A stretch of DNA of 64,000 nucleotides from Rhizobium sp. Root708. GTDB lineage: Bacteria > Pseudomonadota > Alphaproteobacteria > Rhizobiales > Rhizobiaceae. Below are positions 28,119-64,000 of this stretch, in pieces (positions within the stretch are counted from its first letter, which is position 1; every line of letters starts with the position of its first letter). Below the pieces are notes generated by a model that was not told the origin of the DNA, made no database searches, and worked only from the letters and a program-made list of their open reading frames with translations. Both the position numbers and the translations under genes were made by a program. The stretch is from assembly GCF_001429725.1 (NCBI RefSeq), contig NZ_LMHV01000007.1, positions 186,001 through 250,000 of the forward strand, in the 5' to 3' direction.

Positions 28119-28676
28119 ATGACAAAGGCCTTGCTGATTATCGACGTTCAGAATGCCATTCTCGCCGGGAAGGGCACGCCGGAGCGCCAGCCCATTCTCG
28201 ATGCCGCGCTGGATGAAACCGTGTCGCGGCTGCAATCGCTTCGCGCCGAGGCACACCGCGCCGGAGCCCCTGTGGTGCTTGTTCAGCATGACGGCGCACC
28301 CGGTCATCGGCTGGCTGTTGGCACTGATGGTTGGGCTATCCGGCCCGAACTATCGCCTGCCGAGGATGATACCACCGTGCATAAGAAGAGCTCGGATTCG
28401 TTTTTCGAGACCGACCTTGCCGAGAAGTTGGCGGAGCGGAACGTGACGCATCTGATCGTCGGCGGCTGTATGACGCAGTTTTGCGTCGACACGACCGTCA
28501 GGCGTGCAGTGTCGCTGGGATATGATGTGACCTTGGTTGCTGACGGCCATACGACGGCCGATTCAGGAACGCTTCATTTCGCCGACATCATCGCGCATCA
28601 CAATGAAACGCTTGACGATTTCGATGCCGGCAGCGCCCGCATCCTGGTCCGGCCGATGGCGGATATTCAGTTCTGA
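28119..28676 (+). CDS. Isochorismatase-family cysteine hydrolase
   Basis: A 185-residue cysteine hydrolase with the family triad: D in LLIIDVQNAIL, K in TVHKKSSDSFF, and C in VGGCMTQFCVDTTVRRA. Members include nicotinamidases, N-carbamoylsarcosine amidases and hydrolases of small amides; the substrate here is not clear. I chose ATG 28119 (MTKALLIIDVQ) with GGAG 12 bases upstream; a second ATG seven codons earlier is possible. It follows the LacI gene by 52 bases and may be cotranscribed with it, and it ends at a strong terminator. Confidence 0.9.
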   Translation: MTKALLIIDVQNAILAGKGTPERQPILDAALDETVSRLQSLRAEAHRAGAPVVLVQHDGAPGHRLAVGTDGWAIRPELSPAEDDTTVHKKSSDSFFETDLAEKLAERNVTHLIVGGCMTQFCVDTTVRRAVSLGYDVTLVADGHTTADSGTLHFADIIAHHNETLDDFDAGSARILVRPMADIQF

Positions 28677-28697
28677 CGCGACTGTCGCGAGCAGGAG

Positions 28698-28727
28698 GCC
28701 AGCCGGGCGGACCCGGCTGGCTTATTT
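28698..28727 (+). terminator. Terminator after the cysteine hydrolase gene
   Basis: A perfect 10-bp stem, GCCAGCCGGG and CCCGGCTGGC with a four-base loop, is followed by TTATTT. It lies between two converging genes and could also slow transcripts from gnd. Confidence 0.8.
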
Positions 28728-57600: not shown

Positions 57601-58854
57601 CTAGCCGCGACCGTGCACCACGAATTCACCGTCGGAGGCTTCGCGTTCGTCCACCAGTTGATCGATGAACTCAAGGATTTGGTTGCTGGCCTGGGTTGGA
57701 TCGGTCTCGAAGATCGTGGACGCCATGATCGCTCTCTCGGACCGAAGTTCGTCCCGGTATAGCGCCTTCCCAAGCTGCTCGATGAAGGTATCCGGCGTAA
57801 ACACGTGGCGGTACGGCAGGTCGGGCACCAGGGAGAAGTCGGGCTCGAAATTCTGATGCGGCTTGTCTGAAAAATCGAGCGTCAGCACCGGCTTCCCGGT
57901 CAGGAGGAAGTCGAACATGATCGAGGAATAGTCGGTGACGAGGGCATCGAACCGCTGCAGCAGCGGATAGACGTCGACGCCGGCATCGATGAAGGTGAAG
58001 CCTTCGCCCTCCCGTATCGTATCGGCGCCCACAAGCTTGTACATCGGGTGCATCTTGAGAACGAAATTGATGTTCTCGCGCTGCGCGATCGCAGTGAGCG
58101 TCTGCAGGAAGCGCGGCGTCATCAGGTAGGTTTCCTGTCCGCGCTGCCAAGTTGGCAGGACCAGGACATTCTTGCGGCGCGCGCTGAGCGACATGTCGAG
58201 GTCCATGTCGTATTCGCAGCCGATCGTGTCGAACGGCTTGATCGGGCGCAGCAGCACTTCGTTGCGCGGGAAGCCCGCTCGCAGGATATTCCGGCAGCCG
58301 AAGACACCGCTCCAGTAGCGATCGAAGAACGACGAGGTGCTGAGCACATAGTCGGTCTGCGACGCCATGTAGAATGGCCGGCGTATCTCGCTGTTTCGCA
58401 GCGTCAGATGCGGGATGAGTTCGAGCACCAGATGCTTGACCGAAATACCGTGCCAGAGCTGGATCTTCTTCGCCCCCGCCAGGCAGGCATTCAATGCATA
58501 GGCGCCGCGCAGGCTCTCGTTAGGATTGACCGAGAAGACGGCAACGGCGGCATGCAGGAGCAGATCGATCGACCTGTCGACATTCTGCGACAGATCAATG
58601 CACGGCAGCCCGCGGGCAGTGAGAGAACTGACGAGCTGCGAAGAGAAGCTGCACCACATCACCTCGTAATTGCGCTTGCGCGCAATGTCGCTGAGATAGA
58701 GGTACTTGGTGTTGTCGGAAAAGGTCTCCCGGCCGAAATAGAGCACCAGCCGGCGCTTCCGCACACGCTGGGATATCGACGCAAATTCGATCGCCATCGT
58801 CTGGTCGTTCAGCGCCGCCAGATTTGCCTGCGCGGAAGATGGGTCGAAGCTCAT
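57601..58854 (-). CDS. CDP-glycerol glycerophosphotransferase-family protein (TagB/TagF-like)
   Basis: A 417-residue cytoplasmic GT-B transferase. TagF-like motifs are WHGIS (residues 134-138), GFPRNE (194-199), LPTWQRG, KMHP (267-270) and LVTDYSSIMFDF (305-316), the hallmark of enzymes that move glycerol phosphate from CDP-glycerol onto lipid-linked chains. No membrane segment is seen. AAGGAT precedes the start. It lies downstream of a TagD-like cytidylyltransferase and a second transferase, suggesting a glycerol-phosphate polymer or decoration on a surface polysaccharide. Confidence 0.85.
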   Translation of the reverse strand: MSFDPSSAQANLAALNDQTMAIEFASISQRVRKRRLVLYFGRETFSDNTKYLYLSDIARKRNYEVMWCSFSSQLVSSLTARGLPCIDLSQNVDRSIDLLLHAAVAVFSVNPNESLRGAYALNACLAGAKKIQLWHGISVKHLVLELIPHLTLRNSEIRRPFYMASQTDYVLSTSSFFDRYWSGVFGCRNILRAGFPRNEVLLRPIKPFDTIGCEYDMDLDMSLSARRKNVLVLPTWQRGQETYLMTPRFLQTLTAIAQRENINFVLKMHPMYKLVGADTIREGEGFTFIDAGVDVYPLLQRFDALVTDYSSIMFDFLLTGKPVLTLDFSDKPHQNFEPDFSLVPDLPYRHVFTPDTFIEQLGKALYRDELRSERAIMASTIFETDPTQASNQILEFIDQLVDEREASDGEFVVHGRG

Positions 58855-58949
58855 AATTCAATCCTTGGTGTGCACCCGCGCGCTGCGGACGCGATAGTTG
58901 TTGCGGGCCGGCTGAACCGACCTGCGGGGGCAATCGATATCGAGGCGGC

Positions 58950-59345
58950 TCAGGCCGACTGACGAATCTCTTCGAGCGTCATCGTCGTCGAGATGCCTTC
59001 GGTGCGCGGCAGGTAGACGACGTCGCACAGCGTCTTGAACTCGTCGAACCGACCGACCCAGTCGTCGCCCATGACGAGGACATCCGCATCGAACTGCTTG
59101 ATGTATTCGCCCTTCAAGTCGAGCGAGTGTTCGAGGAACACATCGTCCACCCAGCAGATGCTCCGGATGATCTCGAGACGCTGGTCTTCCGGGTAGACCG
59201 TCATCTTGCTTTTCTTGGAGAAGTTCAGCGCGTCGGTCGAGACACCGACCGTCAGGTGATCCCCAAGCGCCTTGGCACGCTGCAGGATACGGATGTGCCC
59301 CACATGCAGAACGTCGAACGTACCAAAGGTTATAATTCGTTTCAT
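58950..59345 (-). CDS. Glycerol-3-phosphate cytidylyltransferase-like protein (TagD type)
   Basis: A 131-residue nucleotidyltransferase with GTFDVLHVGH (HxGH at residues 14-17) and the C-terminal RTEGISTTM block, both typical of glycerol-3-phosphate cytidylyltransferases, which make CDP-glycerol. The length equals TagD. I chose ATG 59345 with GAGGGG upstream over a start twelve codons earlier. It sits between two CDP-glycerol transferase-like genes, supplying their donor. Ribitol- or ethanolamine-phosphate specificity cannot be fully excluded. Confidence 0.9.
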   Translation of the reverse strand: MKRIITFGTFDVLHVGHIRILQRAKALGDHLTVGVSTDALNFSKKSKMTVYPEDQRLEIIRSICWVDDVFLEHSLDLKGEYIKQFDADVLVMGDDWVGRFDEFKTLCDVVYLPRTEGISTTMTLEEIRQSA

Positions 59346-59408
59346 AAGTTGCCCCTCAGAATGAAAGTCGCAGCTGACCAAAGGACAGCAGTTCGCAGCA
59401 CCGCTTCC

Positions 59409-60992
59409 TCAACCCGCCGAACGAATGGCCTGTCGCTCGCTGTGGATGCCTTCGGCAATATTTTCGATGATAACGTCCACGGAAGAACGACCGCCCGGCA
59501 ACAAGGCTTCCTTGAGGGCCGCGCGTTCCGTCTCGAACTTCCATGGAGCCCCGCCCTTGTAGGAAAGAACGGCAGACTTCAGCGAAGCAAAATCGCGCAC
59601 GACATGCGATGCGGCATTTGCCTTGTGACCAAGCGCGTTGAACGGGACGTGGCATCCGGACTCGAAGTAGACCAGCGGCTTGTCGAACAGTGGATATTCC
59701 GTGAGGAAGGAGATGCCGTCGGTGATCATCAGATCCGAGGCATCGAACAATTCGCCATATAGACCGTCGCAGATCGTGCAGTTCGGCAGCGCCGACCAGG
59801 CCTTGAAATAGTCGCGCGCCTGTTCCTCGGTCATCACCTTCGCCCGCACCAGCCCTTCGGTCAGCGCCGGGTGCGGCTTCAATACGAATTCGATATCCGG
59901 CTGGGAACGAGCCCAGGCAAGCATGTCCATCGCCATCCGGTCGAACACACCGAAGCCAAGGCCGCCGCGCACCGAATGATGCGGCGCCCAGACGACGCGA
60001 TAAGCCCGCTCGCCGCGCTCTGGAATAGGCCACTGGCCCTGCCCCTTCGCCTTCAGCAACCGCTCGAATTTCGGGTATCCCGATACGACGATCTTGCTGG
60101 CGTCGTGGCGACGCGGCTTCAGGAATGTCTCGCGCATTTCGGTATTCTCGCAGAATATGCGCCACGTCATACGGTGGAAAAACTGATCGTACCAGGCCGG
60201 CGAATAGAGGTCCGAGCCCTGCGGTCCGTCGTCATGTGTCTGGATGATCAACGCTGCGTAGGGAATAAGGCAGAGGCGTGCGAAAGTGATCTCGCCGGTC
60301 TGGAAGCCCGGCTGAACGCCACCCTCCCAGAACTGCTGGCGGAAGATGACATCGGGCTGAAGGCTCTTCATGATGTCGAGCGCCTCGAAGGAATCGTCCA
60401 TGCCGAACCGCAGATGCGGGATTCCCTGTGATTTCAGGAATTCGCTGACATCCGCCTCACCGGTAAAATTGGCCGAGCCCAGCTGGCTGACATTGAGCGA
60501 GCAGACGATCGGATCGAAGAGAGGCTCCTCGACCATCCGCGCATAAACGTCGGCGAAGGCATCCCACATGGTGACCGACTGCACCAGGAACAGGCAGCGG
60601 ATGCGCTCCTGCCGCGAGGGAATGTTCCTGAGAACCAGATTGGCCGTCTGCTTCACGTGATGGATCTGCGAATGAAGGCCGTTGCCGGTACGGGCAAGCA
60701 GGGTGCCGAAGTCGCGAAGAACGGTCTGCAGCGACTGGTTGAGCTCGGTCATCGTGTTGACCGTCACCTCGCCGAACTGATCGGCGGTGGCGCGCACCTG
60801 TTCCTGCAGACTCGCAAAGCCCTGTCGCTGCTCCTGGTGCAGATTGACGAAGAACTGCACGGTCTCGACCTGGATTTCCTCGGAAATCTGCAGCTTCTGT
60901 GTAATCGCGGAGAGTTGCTCCTCCATCGTCTGGAGCCGGGCGGAAAGGTCCGTCAGCGTTCCTGCAACGTTCGGGACAATCTGCTCGTTCAT
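59409..60992 (-). CDS. Coiled-coil plus CDP-glycerol glycerophosphotransferase-like protein
   Basis: A 527-residue protein. Residues 1 to about 120 are a long amphipathic coiled coil (many Q/E/L heptads such as LQTMEEQLSAITQKLQ). The rest has the same transferase pattern as the neighbouring TagF-like gene: GYPKFERLL, VVWAPHHSVRGG, FVLKPHPAL, and LFDASDLMITDGISFLTEYPLF where LxTDxSS is replaced by MITDGIS. The coiled coil may set oligomer state or chain length. It is the first of the three genes in this unit. AGGGTGAAG precedes the start. Confidence 0.82.
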   Translation of the reverse strand: MNEQIVPNVAGTLTDLSARLQTMEEQLSAITQKLQISEEIQVETVQFFVNLHQEQRQGFASLQEQVRATADQFGEVTVNTMTELNQSLQTVLRDFGTLLARTGNGLHSQIHHVKQTANLVLRNIPSRQERIRCLFLVQSVTMWDAFADVYARMVEEPLFDPIVCSLNVSQLGSANFTGEADVSEFLKSQGIPHLRFGMDDSFEALDIMKSLQPDVIFRQQFWEGGVQPGFQTGEITFARLCLIPYAALIIQTHDDGPQGSDLYSPAWYDQFFHRMTWRIFCENTEMRETFLKPRRHDASKIVVSGYPKFERLLKAKGQGQWPIPERGERAYRVVWAPHHSVRGGLGFGVFDRMAMDMLAWARSQPDIEFVLKPHPALTEGLVRAKVMTEEQARDYFKAWSALPNCTICDGLYGELFDASDLMITDGISFLTEYPLFDKPLVYFESGCHVPFNALGHKANAASHVVRDFASLKSAVLSYKGGAPWKFETERAALKEALLPGGRSSVDVIIENIAEGIHSERQAIRSAG

Positions 60993-61210
60993 GGCTTCAC
61001 CCTGGAAGAATAGCGATACGAAAGCTTCGCCCTGCGACCCGATACGCCTGTCAGGCGCTCAGAGTCCCCGTCCGAAGTATGATCGGAGTATCAGCAGTAG
61101 CTTTCGTGAAACTGATCAGGCTCGCCGCGACGACGGCTTGGAGGTTTTCGGAACGGGCCGCCTTCGCTTATAAGCTGGCCCGAAACGAGTCGAATACATG
61201 GAGAAGCGTC

Positions 61211-61558
61211 ATGACCTCCGCACCCTTTCCCGATCGCGAAACGATCGCCAGCCGCTTTGCGGCGCTTGCCGAACAGGACAGGGCCTATATTGCGCTGCTG
61301 CTGGAAAACCAGGCACAGGACGACAGCCTGATCGAAGGGCTGGAGCAGTATTTGAACGACGCGTCTCGCGCTTCGTTCCTGAACTCGCTCAAACTCGACA
61401 ACCTCGGAAAATGGATCGGCGAGGCTGCCCCGGCGCGTCTCCAGATCCGTCTCATGGAACTGGCGAAGTCGAGCCAGCACCCGGCCTACGCCGCATTCCG
61501 CAACGGCCTGACCTCGTCCGGCGGACTAAGCAGAGCCTATCCGCCGGCAAAGGTCTGA
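61211..61558 (+). CDS. Hypothetical protein, 115 aa
   Basis: I do not recognise a family. The 115-residue protein is soluble and mostly helical, without cysteine; it begins MTSAPFPDRETIASRFAALAEQDRAYIALLLE. A GGAGAAG site lies just before ATG 61211, and codon use is normal for the chromosome, so it is probably real. A longer in-frame start at 61079 has no ribosome site. It converges with the entericidin-like gene. Confidence 0.6.
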   Translation: MTSAPFPDRETIASRFAALAEQDRAYIALLLENQAQDDSLIEGLEQYLNDASRASFLNSLKLDNLGKWIGEAAPARLQIRLMELAKSSQHPAYAAFRNGLTSSGGLSRAYPPAKV

Positions 61559-61564
61559 CAGACG

Positions 61565-61720
61565 TTACCTCTTGGCGGCACGATCCACGGACTTGCCGGC
61601 GTCCTGCGTCGCATTGACGGCATTGGCGGTGTCTCTGCCGACACCGCGGATCGTGTTGGCGCAGGAGGACAGGGCAAGTAGAACCATGCAGGCAGCAGCG
61701 ATTTTGGCCGTGGTCGTCAT
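61565..61720 (-). CDS. Entericidin A/B family small lipoprotein
   Basis: A 51-residue lipoprotein: basic-hydrophobic signal (MTTTAKIAAACMVLLALSS) with the lipidated cysteine at residue 20 (LSSC), then ANTIRGVGRDTANAVNATQDAGKSVDRAAKR, the entericidin pattern of a short amphipathic helix. In E. coli the EcnA/EcnB pair acts as antidote and toxin; in alphaproteobacteria single copies are common with unclear function. AAGGA lies ten bases upstream of the start. Confidence 0.85.
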   Translation of the reverse strand: MTTTAKIAAACMVLLALSSCANTIRGVGRDTANAVNATQDAGKSVDRAAKR

Positions 61721-61824
61721 TCTGGCAATCCTTTTTTGATGAAATCGATCCCTCGAGGCAACAGCGACGCCGCTGCCGCACCCTTAACGCGCTGATCGAA
61801 AAAAGGTTTCATCGCCACCTACGG

Positions 61825-62724
61825 TCAGGCGGCCAGCACCTTGGCCTTCTCGGAGAAGGAAAAGCGAATGCTGTCGGCAACGGCCTGCATCGGCGCCGTC
61901 AACTGGGACGCTGTCAACAGGCGGATGTCGAACGATGCGAGTTCCGGCAGGCCCTCCTGCGCTCCGAGGATCGCCATGTCGTCGCTGATATAAGACCGCG
62001 GCAACGGCGCGATCGCCAGATCGGAAATGACGGCCGCGCGCTGCGCCATCGTATGGCCGCTCAGAAACGCGACACGATAGCTGCGCTTCATTCTTTCAAG
62101 CTGCGAAATCGCTTCGGATCGCCAGATGCAGCCTTCCTCCCAAATGGAGATCGGCAATGGATCGCGCCGGTGCGCGGTTCCGCATTTCGCGCCGGCCCAG
62201 ACAAGACGCTCCCGGAAAACGATTTCGCCGTCCGTTGGCAGCGGTCGCGTTGCGCAGTTGATAAGCGCGAGGTCCAGCCTCTGCTCTTCCAGGCGCTTTC
62301 GCAAACCCAGGCTCATATCGATCGTGACATCGACCATGATGCCCGGAAAAGTCTCGGCAAAGCTTCGAAGGATGCTCGGCAGCAGCCGCTCGCCAATATC
62401 TTCCGGTGCACCGAGACGAACGACACCGCTGAGCTCCGGCATCACAAAGCGCGATACCGCCTCGTTCGAGAGCGCCAGAATGTTGCGGGCATAAGAGAGA
62501 AGCAGTTCGCCGTGCTGCGTCAGCGAAACCGACCGGGCATCGCGCAGGAAAAGCGTGGCGCCAAGCTGCTCCTCGAGCTTTTTGATCTGCATGGATACAG
62601 CGGACGGCGTGCGGAACACGGCCTCCGCAGCGGTCGAAAAATTGCCCGTTTCAGCGATGGCCACAAACGTTCGCAGCACATCGTTATCAAGCAAGGGAAT
62701 GGGACGGCGAATGGGGAACGTCAT
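61825..62724 (-). CDS. LysR family transcriptional regulator
   Basis: A 299-residue LysR-type regulator with an N-terminal winged helix (LLDNDVLRTFVAIAETGNFSTAAEAVFRTPSAVSMQIKKLEEQLG) and an effector-binding domain. I chose ATG 62724 (MTFPIRRPIPLLDND), with GAG upstream, over an in-frame start 14 codons earlier. It is divergent from a DUF1127 small-protein gene at 118 bases. In Brucella the LysR regulator VtlR activates DUF1127 small-protein genes, so the same arrangement here is plausible, but I did not establish orthology. Confidence 0.92.
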   Translation of the reverse strand: MTFPIRRPIPLLDNDVLRTFVAIAETGNFSTAAEAVFRTPSAVSMQIKKLEEQLGATLFLRDARSVSLTQHGELLLSYARNILALSNEAVSRFVMPELSGVVRLGAPEDIGERLLPSILRSFAETFPGIMVDVTIDMSLGLRKRLEEQRLDLALINCATRPLPTDGEIVFRERLVWAGAKCGTAHRRDPLPISIWEEGCIWRSEAISQLERMKRSYRVAFLSGHTMAQRAAVISDLAIAPLPRSYISDDMAILGAQEGLPELASFDIRLLTASQLTAPMQAVADSIRFSFSEKAKVLAA

Positions 62725-62842
62725 CGTCTCATCTTTCAATTTTTTTGATCTGAAGCACCATATCATTTTGTTTGTCTGAAAGTCAACCGAGGCCTACCGT
62801 CAGACGTGTAGAGCAAAACGTCCACTATCAGGAGGTAGGACA

Positions 62843-62989
62843 ATGACGTTGAACACGCTTTGGGACAGCCTCTTCGACCTGCTGGCGCGCCAGCGCGTTC
62901 GCCTTGCCCGCAAGCGCGCGATGAAACAGGTGGCACGCCTCCCCGGCCACATTCCCGATGATCTCGACCTTCGTGCGGTCGCTCAGTGA
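62843..62989 (+). CDS. DUF1127 (YjiS-like) small protein
   Basis: A 48-residue basic protein: MTLNTLWDSLFDLLARQ, then the arginine-rich core RVRLARKRAMKQVARLP and GHIPDDLDLR. The DUF1127 domain is common in rhizobia and Brucella; some members affect RNA turnover, phosphate or fucose metabolism. The ATG at 62843 has an ideal AGGAGG site. It is divergent from the LysR gene. A 12-bp perfect hairpin follows its stop. Confidence 0.88.
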   Translation: MTLNTLWDSLFDLLARQRVRLARKRAMKQVARLPGHIPDDLDLRAVAQ

Positions 62990-63001
62990 AGGCGGCTTGA
63001 T

Positions 63002-63042
63002 TGCGGACGAGTTTGAAGATGGGTAGTGACAACTCGTCCGCA
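63002..63042 (+). terminator. Hairpin after the DUF1127 gene
   Basis: TGCGGACGAGTT (63002-63013) pairs perfectly with AACTCGTCCGCA (63031-63042). It starts 13 bases after the DUF1127 stop. No T run follows, so it may be a processing or stability hairpin rather than an intrinsic terminator. Confidence 0.55.
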
Positions 63043-63060
63043 TTCCTGTAGCAAGCGGTC

Positions 63061-63135
63061 ATGTCGATCGCTTGCGCATATGTTTCCCGATTTTATTATT
63101 TCCGTGCCTCGGTGCGGAAGCGGGAAAGTGCGTAA
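63061..63135 (+). CDS. Candidate aroG leader peptide with Phe-Tyr-Tyr-Phe run
   Basis: A 24-codon ORF 89 bases upstream of aroG, ATG 63061 to TAA 63135. The peptide has five aromatic residues, four of them in a row (SRFYYFR; TTT TAT TAT TTC at 63091-63102) plus a tyrosine at 63079. Its codons overlap a strong hairpin (63083-63127), and a terminator follows. That is the layout of an amino-acid attenuator leader such as pheL in E. coli. The ribosome site is weak (AGCGGTC). Coding is inferred from this arrangement, not from homology. Confidence 0.6.
   Translation: MSIACAYVSRFYYFRASVRKRESA
63083..63127 (+). promoter_or_regulatory. Leader hairpin (pause/protector stem) of the aroG attenuator
   Basis: Two stacked stems form one arm: TTTCCCG (63083-63089) with CGGGAAA (63121-63127), and TTCCG (63100-63104) with CGGAA (63115-63119). 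The aromatic codons lie in the left bulge, so a ribosome waiting there would open the stem and free AGCGG (63119-63123), which can pair with CCGCT (63165-63169) in the terminator. Confidence 0.6.
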
Positions 63136-63162
63136 CTAAGAAAGACGCAATTTCATCCGACC

Positions 63163-63190
63163 AACCGCTAGTCTACCTGGCGGTTTTTTT
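63163..63190 (+). terminator. Intrinsic terminator in the aroG leader
   Basis: AACCGCTAG (63163-63171) pairs with CTGGCGGTT (63177-63185) around TCTAC, with one T-G pair, and a run of seven Ts (63184-63190) follows. It lies 34 bases before the aroG GTG start and inside its leader. Confidence 0.85.
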
Positions 63191-63224
63191 ATGCGCCCGG
63201 TATGACCTCCTGGAGACCAATACC

Positions 63225-64000
63225 GTGACGAACCCGACTGACGATCTGCGCATAACCAATATCGTCGAACTCTCCTCGCCTGCACGCATCATCGATGAGT
63301 TGCCGCGTGACGAGACTGTCAGCAAGACGGTGCTCGGCGCTCGCAGCGCCATCCACGATATCCTGACCAAAAAGGACGACAGGCTTCTCGTCGTTGTCGG
63401 CCCGTGCTCCATCCATGATCCGGTTGCTGCGATCGACTACGCCAAGCGACTCAAGGAACAGCGCGATCGGCTGCAGGGCGACCTCGAGATCGTCATGCGC
63501 GTCTACTTCGAAAAGCCGCGCACGACCGTCGGTTGGAAGGGCCTGATCAACGATCCCGGCCTCGACGGCAGCTTCCGGATCGAGGATGGCCTGCGCATCG
63601 CCCGCAAGCTTTTGCTCGATGTGAACGAACTCGAGCTGCCGGCAGGCTGCGAATTCCTCGACACGATCACGCCGCAATACATCGCTGACCTCGTCAGCTG
63701 GGGTGCCATCGGTGCCCGCACGACCGAAAGCCAGGTTCATAGGGAACTCGCCTCCGGCCTCTCCTCGGCGATCGGCTTCAAGAACGGCACCACCGGCGAT
63801 GTGCGTATCGCCCTCGATGCCATCATGGCCGCCTCGCAGCCGCATCATTTTCCGGCTGTCACGAAGGACGGGCGCGCAGCGATCGCATCGACGAGCGGCA
63901 ACGAGGATGGCCACATCATCCTGCGCGGCGGCAGAGAGCCGAACTATGATCGCGAAAGCGTCGCGGCAGCAATGGCGGCCTCCCGCGAAGCAAAGCTCGA
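63225..64000 (+). CDS. aroG: 3-deoxy-7-phosphoheptulonate (DAHP) synthase, class I, 3' end outside the window
   Basis: The first enzyme of the shikimate pathway, condensing phosphoenolpyruvate and erythrose 4-phosphate. 258 codons are present; the frame is still open at base 64000. Motifs: VVVGPCSIHDPVAAIDYA with the metal cysteine, MRVYFEKPRTTVGWKGLINDP, WGAIGARTTESQVHRELASGLS and IILRGG, the E. coli AroG/F/H class. The start is GTG 63225 (GGAG nine bases upstream); earlier in-frame starts run into stops. This class is feedback-inhibited by Phe, Tyr or Trp; the leader peptide rich in Phe and Tyr suggests transcription also responds to those. Confidence 0.96.
   Translation, partial: MTNPTDDLRITNIVELSSPARIIDELPRDETVSKTVLGARSAIHDILTKKDDRLLVVVGPCSIHDPVAAIDYAKRLKEQRDRLQGDLEIVMRVYFEKPRTTVGWKGLINDPGLDGSFRIEDGLRIARKLLLDVNELELPAGCEFLDTITPQYIADLVSWGAIGARTTESQVHRELASGLSSAIGFKNGTTGDVRIALDAIMAASQPHHFPAVTKDGRAAIASTSGNEDGHIILRGGREPNYDRESVAAAMAASREAKL

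Follow-up and report, generated by a model that had tools for sequence, protein, structure and literature searches.

The class I 3-deoxy-7-phosphoheptulonate (DAHP) synthase gene aroG begins close to the end of a 64,000-nucleotide stretch of DNA from Rhizobium sp. Root708 (hereafter, the window), preceded by a short ORF with a run of aromatic codons and by a terminator-like hairpin. This arrangement raises the questions (i) whether ORF and hairpin together form a ribosome-mediated attenuator; (ii) how widely they are conserved ahead of aroG; (iii) which aromatic amino acids the leader reads; and (iv) where transcription and translation of the leader begin.

An aromatic leader ORF and a predicted terminator precede aroG

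As a preliminary description of this DNA had claimed, an aromatic leader ORF and a predicted terminator lie ahead of aroG (Table 1). The 24-codon ORF with four consecutive aromatic codons and the terminator with its seven Ts were found in the sequence where they had been placed, and so was a two-part hairpin (63083-63127), which consists of the 7-bp helix TTTCCCG/CGGGAAA and a predicted 9-bp inner helix; a third predicted helix lengthens this protector hairpin to the leader stop codon. Between the last T of the terminator and the aroG start codon, GTG, there are 34 bases, as described. The two strands of the window together contain 732 ATG-initiated ORFs with lengths of 10-45 codons, and just one of these has at least four consecutive aromatic codons: the aroG leader ORF, which also has a terminator-like hairpin downstream of it.

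Table 1. Features of the aroG upstream region (window coordinates).
Feature	Position	Strand	Basis and remarks
Predicted promoter	63026..63054	+	-35 GTGACA 63026-63031, 17-bp spacer, -10-like TAGCAA 63049-63054, 6 bases to leader ATG
Leader peptide ORF	63061..63135	+	24 codons and stop, encodes MSIACAYVSRFYYFRASVRKRESA (direct reading of the sequence); no Shine-Dalgarno sequence seen
Control codons 11-14	63091..63102	+	TTT TAT TAT TTC (Phe Tyr Tyr Phe); sequence
Predicted protector hairpin (1:2)	63072..63135	+	RNA folding; helices 63099-63107/63112-63120, 63083-63089/63121-63127, 63072-63079/63128-63135
Predicted antiterminator (2:3), first helix	63114..63168	+	RNA folding; GCGG 63114-63117/CCGC 63165-63168
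Predicted antiterminator (2:3), second helix		+	CGG 63121-63123/CCG 63157-63159 and GAAA 63124-63127/TTTC 63151-63154
Predicted antiterminator (2:3), third helix		+	TGCGT 63129-63133/ACGCA 63145-63149
Predicted intrinsic terminator (3:4)	63163..63190	+	Sequence and folding; stem 63163-63171/63177-63185, seven Ts 63184-63190
Shine-Dalgarno-like CTGGAGAC of aroG	63210..63217	+	Sequence
aroG, class I DAHP synthase, 356 aa	63225..64000	+	Extends beyond the window end

The earlier assignment of the downstream gene to class I DAHP synthases holds, as its product matches Pfam PF00793 and scores 508 bits against the NCBIfam model TIGR00034, aroFGH (cut-off 173). The isozyme name aroG, however, is loose, because the product, at 527 bits, stays below the cut-off of the narrower NCBIfam AroG model (568) and, at 477 bits, exceeds that of the AroH model (463); the nearest solved structures include the Phe-regulated DAHP synthase of Escherichia coli. 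The nearest named relative is Rhizobium tibeticum, with 98% identity over residues 1-244 and an identical leader peptide. A second DAHP synthase encoded in the same genome belongs to class II, and no aromatic-rich leader ORF was found within 500 bases upstream of its gene.

Upstream of aroG, on the opposite strand, the window encodes a LysR-type regulator (61828-62766). Between this gene and aroG lies a 48-codon Arg-rich ORF (62843-62989), which has no Pfam match and which we take to resemble DUF1127 proteins. Further upstream, the minus strand (57604-60992) carries a cytidylyltransferase-like gene between two genes whose products have CDP-glycerol glycerophosphotransferase domains; these are perhaps a surface-polymer cluster.

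The predicted RNA pairings would require a kinetic switch

From the sequence and RNA folding, we consider it very probable that the leader run and the predicted terminator, situated between a predicted promoter and aroG, constitute a ribosome-mediated transcription attenuator that would turn aroG on during a shortage of charged tRNA-Phe or tRNA-Tyr. On this model, transcription would begin at, or adjoining, the leader AUG, and a ribosome would initiate on this 5' AUG without a Shine-Dalgarno sequence. With Phe and Tyr plentiful, the ribosome would travel as far as the stop codon and mask region 2 (63114-63127), whereupon regions 3 and 4 would pair with each other and transcription would end at the T-run. 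When either amino acid is short, a ribosome stalled at codons 11-14 would cover region 1 and leave region 2 free to pair with region 3 ahead of the synthesis of region 4, and RNA polymerase would continue into aroG. If no ribosome were present, the 1:2 hairpin would form and, along with it, the terminator.

To model the stalls, we assumed a ribosome footprint that extends 10 bases downstream of the A-site codon and folded the RNA to the end of region 3. For stalls at each of codons 11, 12, 13 and 14, before region 4 is made, the best fold was the antiterminator that starts with the GCGG/CCGC helix. The preliminary description had proposed a different alternative pairing, AGCGG (63119-63123) with CCGCT (63165-63169); these bases are present, but predicted folding does not favour their pairing in any of the codon 11-14 stalls. 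We rejected it as the main antiterminator: with the ribosome at codon 14 its pairing probability was approximately zero, and the fold in which it was forced was 3.7 kcal/mol worse than the GCGG fold (-13.1 versus -16.8 kcal/mol). Among the modelled stalls (codons 7, 11-14, 24 and 25), it was the best fold only at Tyr codon 7.

The protector, antiterminator and terminator pairings are mutually exclusive and are placed so that a stall would free region 2 (predicted by folding, the assumed footprint excluded). With region 4 present, the terminator had the lowest energy for 48 of 48 Rhizobium leaders, whichever of the four ribosome states was modelled, while the antiterminator won, for a ribosome halted at the last or the first of the aromatic codons, in 20 or 29, respectively, of 83 leaders from other alphaproteobacteria, and in 7 or 5 of 38 beta- and gammaproteobacterial leaders. 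Since the terminator wins at equilibrium in every state modelled for Rhizobium, the switch would have to be kinetic, with the 2:3 pairing forming first; classical attenuators commonly rely in this way on 2:3 pairing in advance of region 4.

Taken alone, the 2:3 pairing of the window's leader is not beyond chance (z -1.5; 38 of 60 shuffled sequences reach its four pairs), and folding z-scores for Rhizobium are modest (mean -1.2, 27 of 46 below -1), those of several other families being stronger. When the 44 same-genus copies were compared by alignment column, the first antiterminator helix was predicted in all 44, the second in 41-42 and the third in 34; the terminator pairs were predicted in 43-44 and the central pairs of the protector inner helix in 43, while the outer protector helices vary. 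An automatic count found at least four 2:3 pairs in 165 of 169 leaders drawn from several families; L016, L028, L029 and L047, all Rhizobium copies, did not reach this mark. Across families, regions 2, 3 and 4 stay complementary, region 2 being, for example, TGGCGG, CTGGCGG, AGGCGG, CCGGCGG or AGCGG.

Covariation was assessed with 136 aligned sequences, each distinct leader peptide among the 169 being represented once (132 distinct rows). In the antiterminator 89.0% of cells could pair, and in the terminator 96.5%; with the partner slid by 1-3 columns, at most 66.3% and 61.4% of cells, respectively, could do so. Double changes occurred in 35 antiterminator and 50 terminator cells, and both counts exceed every shuffle, with 29 of the 35 falling at one pair, largely in the Rhizobium clade, and 40 of the 50 likewise at one pair; at these two pairs G-C changes in step to A-U in 29 and 40 cells, respectively. 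The number of antiterminator pairs that show double changes (two of six) was not above that in shuffles, 496 of 500 of which were as high, and the terminator covariation score of 0.190 is not far above that of one slid version (0.153).

These pairings also bear on a different reading, that the ORF encodes a small protein in a transcription unit closed by the terminator and that aroG is transcribed from a separate promoter after it. The 34 bases after the T-run would have to accommodate that promoter, for which they offer little room. Moreover, the 5' arm of the terminator doubles as the predicted antiterminator partner in all 44 same-genus copies, and in the 165 leaders counted above an aromatic run lies upstream of a region 2 that is able to pair with region 3, so that we regard a separate promoter as scarcely credible.

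The element is conserved ahead of aroG in Rhizobium

The preliminary description had held that a lack of conserved aromatic codons among relatives would speak against attenuation. The nearest search, covering 100 genomes (here and below the window's own is counted), gave 50 strong aroG matches and one weak one; having read all 50 upstream regions, we found leader and terminator ahead of 47 of these loci, and the element thus withstood this test. In three same-genus loci, L022 (G057), L023 (G030) and L025 (G037), neither a leader nor an attenuator was found before aroG. The ORFs adjoining aroG in L022 and L023 are unlike those in the window.

Within the pooled set, the leader is 24 codons long in 46 of 46 same-genus copies, and the Arg-Phe-Tyr codons CGA TTT TAT are identical in all 46 (own genome counted), whereas in 36 long ORFs of the window the shares of TTT among Phe codons and of CGA among Arg codons are 15% and 9%, respectively. 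Likewise, TTT accounts for 48 of 54 Phe codons in the aromatic runs of 48 Rhizobium leaders, and for 144 of 181 in those of 83 leaders from other alphaproteobacteria, as against 101 of 652 in the same long ORFs.

Residues flanking the run are conserved within Rhizobium as well (RFYx[YF]R), as would be expected if the nascent peptide itself sensed a free aromatic amino acid and arrested the ribosome, without any tRNA shortage, a mechanism for which TnaC is the precedent. Within the run, nevertheless, a given position may hold F, Y, W or S, and the run differs from lineage to lineage as well; at the C-terminus, the conserved residues overlap region 2 at its GGCGG bases, so that RNA pairing can account for their conservation. 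We therefore consider peptide arrest very unlikely, and retain stalling for want of charged tRNA as the probable signal.

A covariance model, R1, was built from the 44 same-genus copies and run on 61 genomes. Of the 37 same-genus genomes among these, 28 have aroG, and 27 of the 28 show one strong match, directly before aroG; as these 27 sequences sit in the alignment from which R1 was built, only the absence of further copies is informative. The remaining genome, G030, has aroG and no strong match, and the nine same-genus genomes without aroG gave no match above 26 bits. A second strong match was found in none of the 61 genomes; each strong match lies just before aroG, and the rest score 24-26 bits. 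R1 missed the divergent elements of G064 and G074. A weak match in the window itself (28618-28726; 17.8 bits, E 0.0047) is perhaps merely a terminator-like hairpin.

The distribution of R1 matches is relevant to possible action in trans, besides or instead of in cis, by the terminated RNA of approximately 130 nt, the peptide, or both. The leaderless trp attenuator of Sinorhizobium meliloti offers a precedent in rnTrpL and peTrpL, as far as the accessible text of the reports goes (PMC7298713, PMC10117765), and the leader RNA and the peptide are both conserved within Rhizobium. However, the confinement of strong R1 matches in the 61 genomes searched to sites before aroG, with none in same-genus genomes that lack the gene, fits control in cis, and we regard a role in trans as rather unlikely.

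The element extends to Beta- and Gammaproteobacteria

To follow the element beyond the genus, we read the regions upstream of 59 strong aroG matches from 397 genomes of the same order, of 14 from 385 genomes of the class, and of the best 80 of 592 named loci. After removal of repeats, one automatic filter detected leader and terminator in 169 of 195 pooled loci: 100 of 103 from the same order or closer, 10 of 12 from further within the class and 59 of 80 named ones (the best 80 of 592). These figures count loci rather than independent events, as unnamed and named sets may share species. L195 was left out of the pooled set (spurious ORF), while two loci were counted as misses: L119, which is cut by a contig end, and L114, which has a terminator and a leader, with RFY only, that was seen by eye and missed by the filter. 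Applied to controls, the same filter was positive in none of 195 opposite-strand and none of 195 shuffled sequences.

The 169 positive loci comprise 131 from Alphaproteobacteria and 38 that are beta- or gammaproteobacterial or unclassified; the element is thus present in Rhizobium, as first described, but is not specific to rhizobia. Among the best 80 of 592 named loci, all 21 alphaproteobacterial ones were positive (Rhizobium, Devosia, Bradyrhizobium, Mesorhizobium, Methylosinus, Caulobacter, Phenylobacterium, Leisingera and two further MAGs), as were 38 of the other 59, including Xanthomonas and relatives, Dyella, Rhodanobacter, Burkholderia and relatives, Oxalobacteraceae and one unclassified MAG. 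The element is carried by R. tropici as well. By the automatic filter, the element was not found at loci within the same 80 from, for example, Enterovibrio, Photobacterium, Shewanella, Thauera, Azoarcus and Undibacterium.

Most alphaproteobacterial leaders carry Phe, Tyr and Trp codons

The designation as a Phe/Tyr leader is apt for the window, whose run reads Phe-Tyr-Tyr-Phe and whose leader lacks a Trp codon, but not for most other alphaproteobacterial copies: in 77 of 83 leaders from outside Rhizobium, codons for Phe, Tyr and Trp all occur in the densest 8-codon stretch. A clear example of this tri-aromatic pattern is the Bradyrhizobium leader MITVATSYFWYFSYDSSLAAGGSRSI; in Mesorhizobium, too, the run contains TGG. 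By the same measure, 18 of 48 Rhizobium leaders contain all three, the other 30 being without Trp, and 21 of 38 leaders do so in the beta- and gammaproteobacterial set. As DAHP synthase makes the precursor of Phe, Tyr and Trp, a leader that reads all three fits the gene. From this distribution of codons across the leaders, we infer that the Trp codon is ancestral and has been lost in the lineage of the window.

Promoter spacing suggests a leaderless start

For each of the 47 loci of the nearest search that have a leader, the two boxes of the top-scoring -35/-10 pair are 17 bp apart, and the gap from the -10 to the leader ATG is 6 bases in 43 copies and 7 bases in 4, with the -10 of the window itself being weak (three of six consensus bases). 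The combination of a 17-bp spacer with a gap of 6-7 bases was found for 120 of 131 alphaproteobacterial leaders, as compared to 44 of 732 arbitrary short ORFs of the window; outside Rhizobium this comparison is mildly circular, as the ATG with the best promoter score was chosen where several were candidates. The spacers themselves vary greatly in sequence from group to group, so a block of DNA that merely stayed the same does not explain the constant distance. A Shine-Dalgarno-like 4-mer is absent from 122 of the 131 leaders. Together, fixed spacing and lack of this 4-mer predict that the transcript starts at the leader AUG, and thus upstream of the terminator.

The aroG leader mRNA is probably leaderless, as has been published for S. 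meliloti trpL, a translated attenuator leader whose RNA starts at its AUG (PMC7298713, PMC10117765, in the text accessible for each). Leaderless mRNAs are reported to be frequent in Caulobacter (PMC4117421) and Bradyrhizobium (PMC4842269), again going by the accessible portions of these papers. The scorer is not validated on the genome's own trpL (MNMSLNIAIWWWAR), a trp attenuator-type leader before trpE(G) (L210 near 1148, contig C42), because it placed no promoter close to it. In the beta- and gammaproteobacterial copies promoter placement scatters, and a conserved leaderless promoter was not demonstrable.

Implications and comparison with known attenuators

Taking these results together, we lean towards the view that the element belongs to an undescribed, ancient attenuator family in which one run reads Phe, Tyr and Trp and which governs class I DAHP synthase in Alpha-, Beta- and some Gammaproteobacteria; it would be leaderless in Alphaproteobacteria, its terminated RNA and peptide may act in trans, and the lineage of the window would be a branch that dropped the Trp codon. 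The element likely represents the control logic for the entry step of aromatic biosynthesis: with one codon run reading all three end products, a single cheap element could set the flux through the shared pathway. It would furthermore be a compact system in which to test attenuation that does without a Shine-Dalgarno sequence, and those Rhizobium leaders that lack the Trp codon would amount to a natural experiment in attenuator retuning.

The pheA, pheST and trp leaders of enterobacteria follow the same four-region logic that we propose for aroG; they are Shine-Dalgarno-led, and each mainly reads one amino acid. In E. coli, a single leader, that of ilvGMEDA, reads three amino acids from the branched-chain pathway family and sets branched-chain flux comparably. 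E. coli aroG itself is under TyrR.

A search of Rfam 15 with window positions 60000-64000 (E up to 5) gave nothing at the gathering score, the best match being sroD (23.2 bits versus 50), nor did any of eight relatives match at that score; the element would thus add a conserved RNA without a match in Rfam 15. In the literature searched, we found no account of the aroG leader element, copies of which Merino's attenuator predictions or Vitreschak et al. 2004 could list, and none of aroG control in the bacteria that carry it. The term aroG is absent from PMC2965389, PMC5082802 and PMC1262725, and a 2005 paper, in its accessible text, concerns predicted attenuators at tyrA-linked genes and not this element (PMC1173090).

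The nearest published uORF of a DAHP synthase gene that we found is the uORFC-13-1 motif upstream of aroF in Acholeplasma, which similarly combines Phe codons with a terminator (PMC8632094). In the part of that description accessible to us, it is confined to Acholeplasma and environmental sequences (24 unique sequences), and has a ribosome-binding site and at least one Phe codon, with no run of Tyr or Trp described; the published taxon range does not fit the aroG element (PMC8632094).

Comparable in design is trpL-trpE(G) of S. meliloti, in which, according to the accessible text, a leader ORF with consecutive aromatic codons and a terminator operate through ribosome stalling, as is predicted here for aroG; unlike the aroG leader, this trpL reads only Trp, is 14 aa long and precedes a different gene (PMC7298713, PMC10117765). 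The mechanism is of a known kind; the gene, the breadth of distribution, the triple reading and the predicted leaderless start appear to be new.
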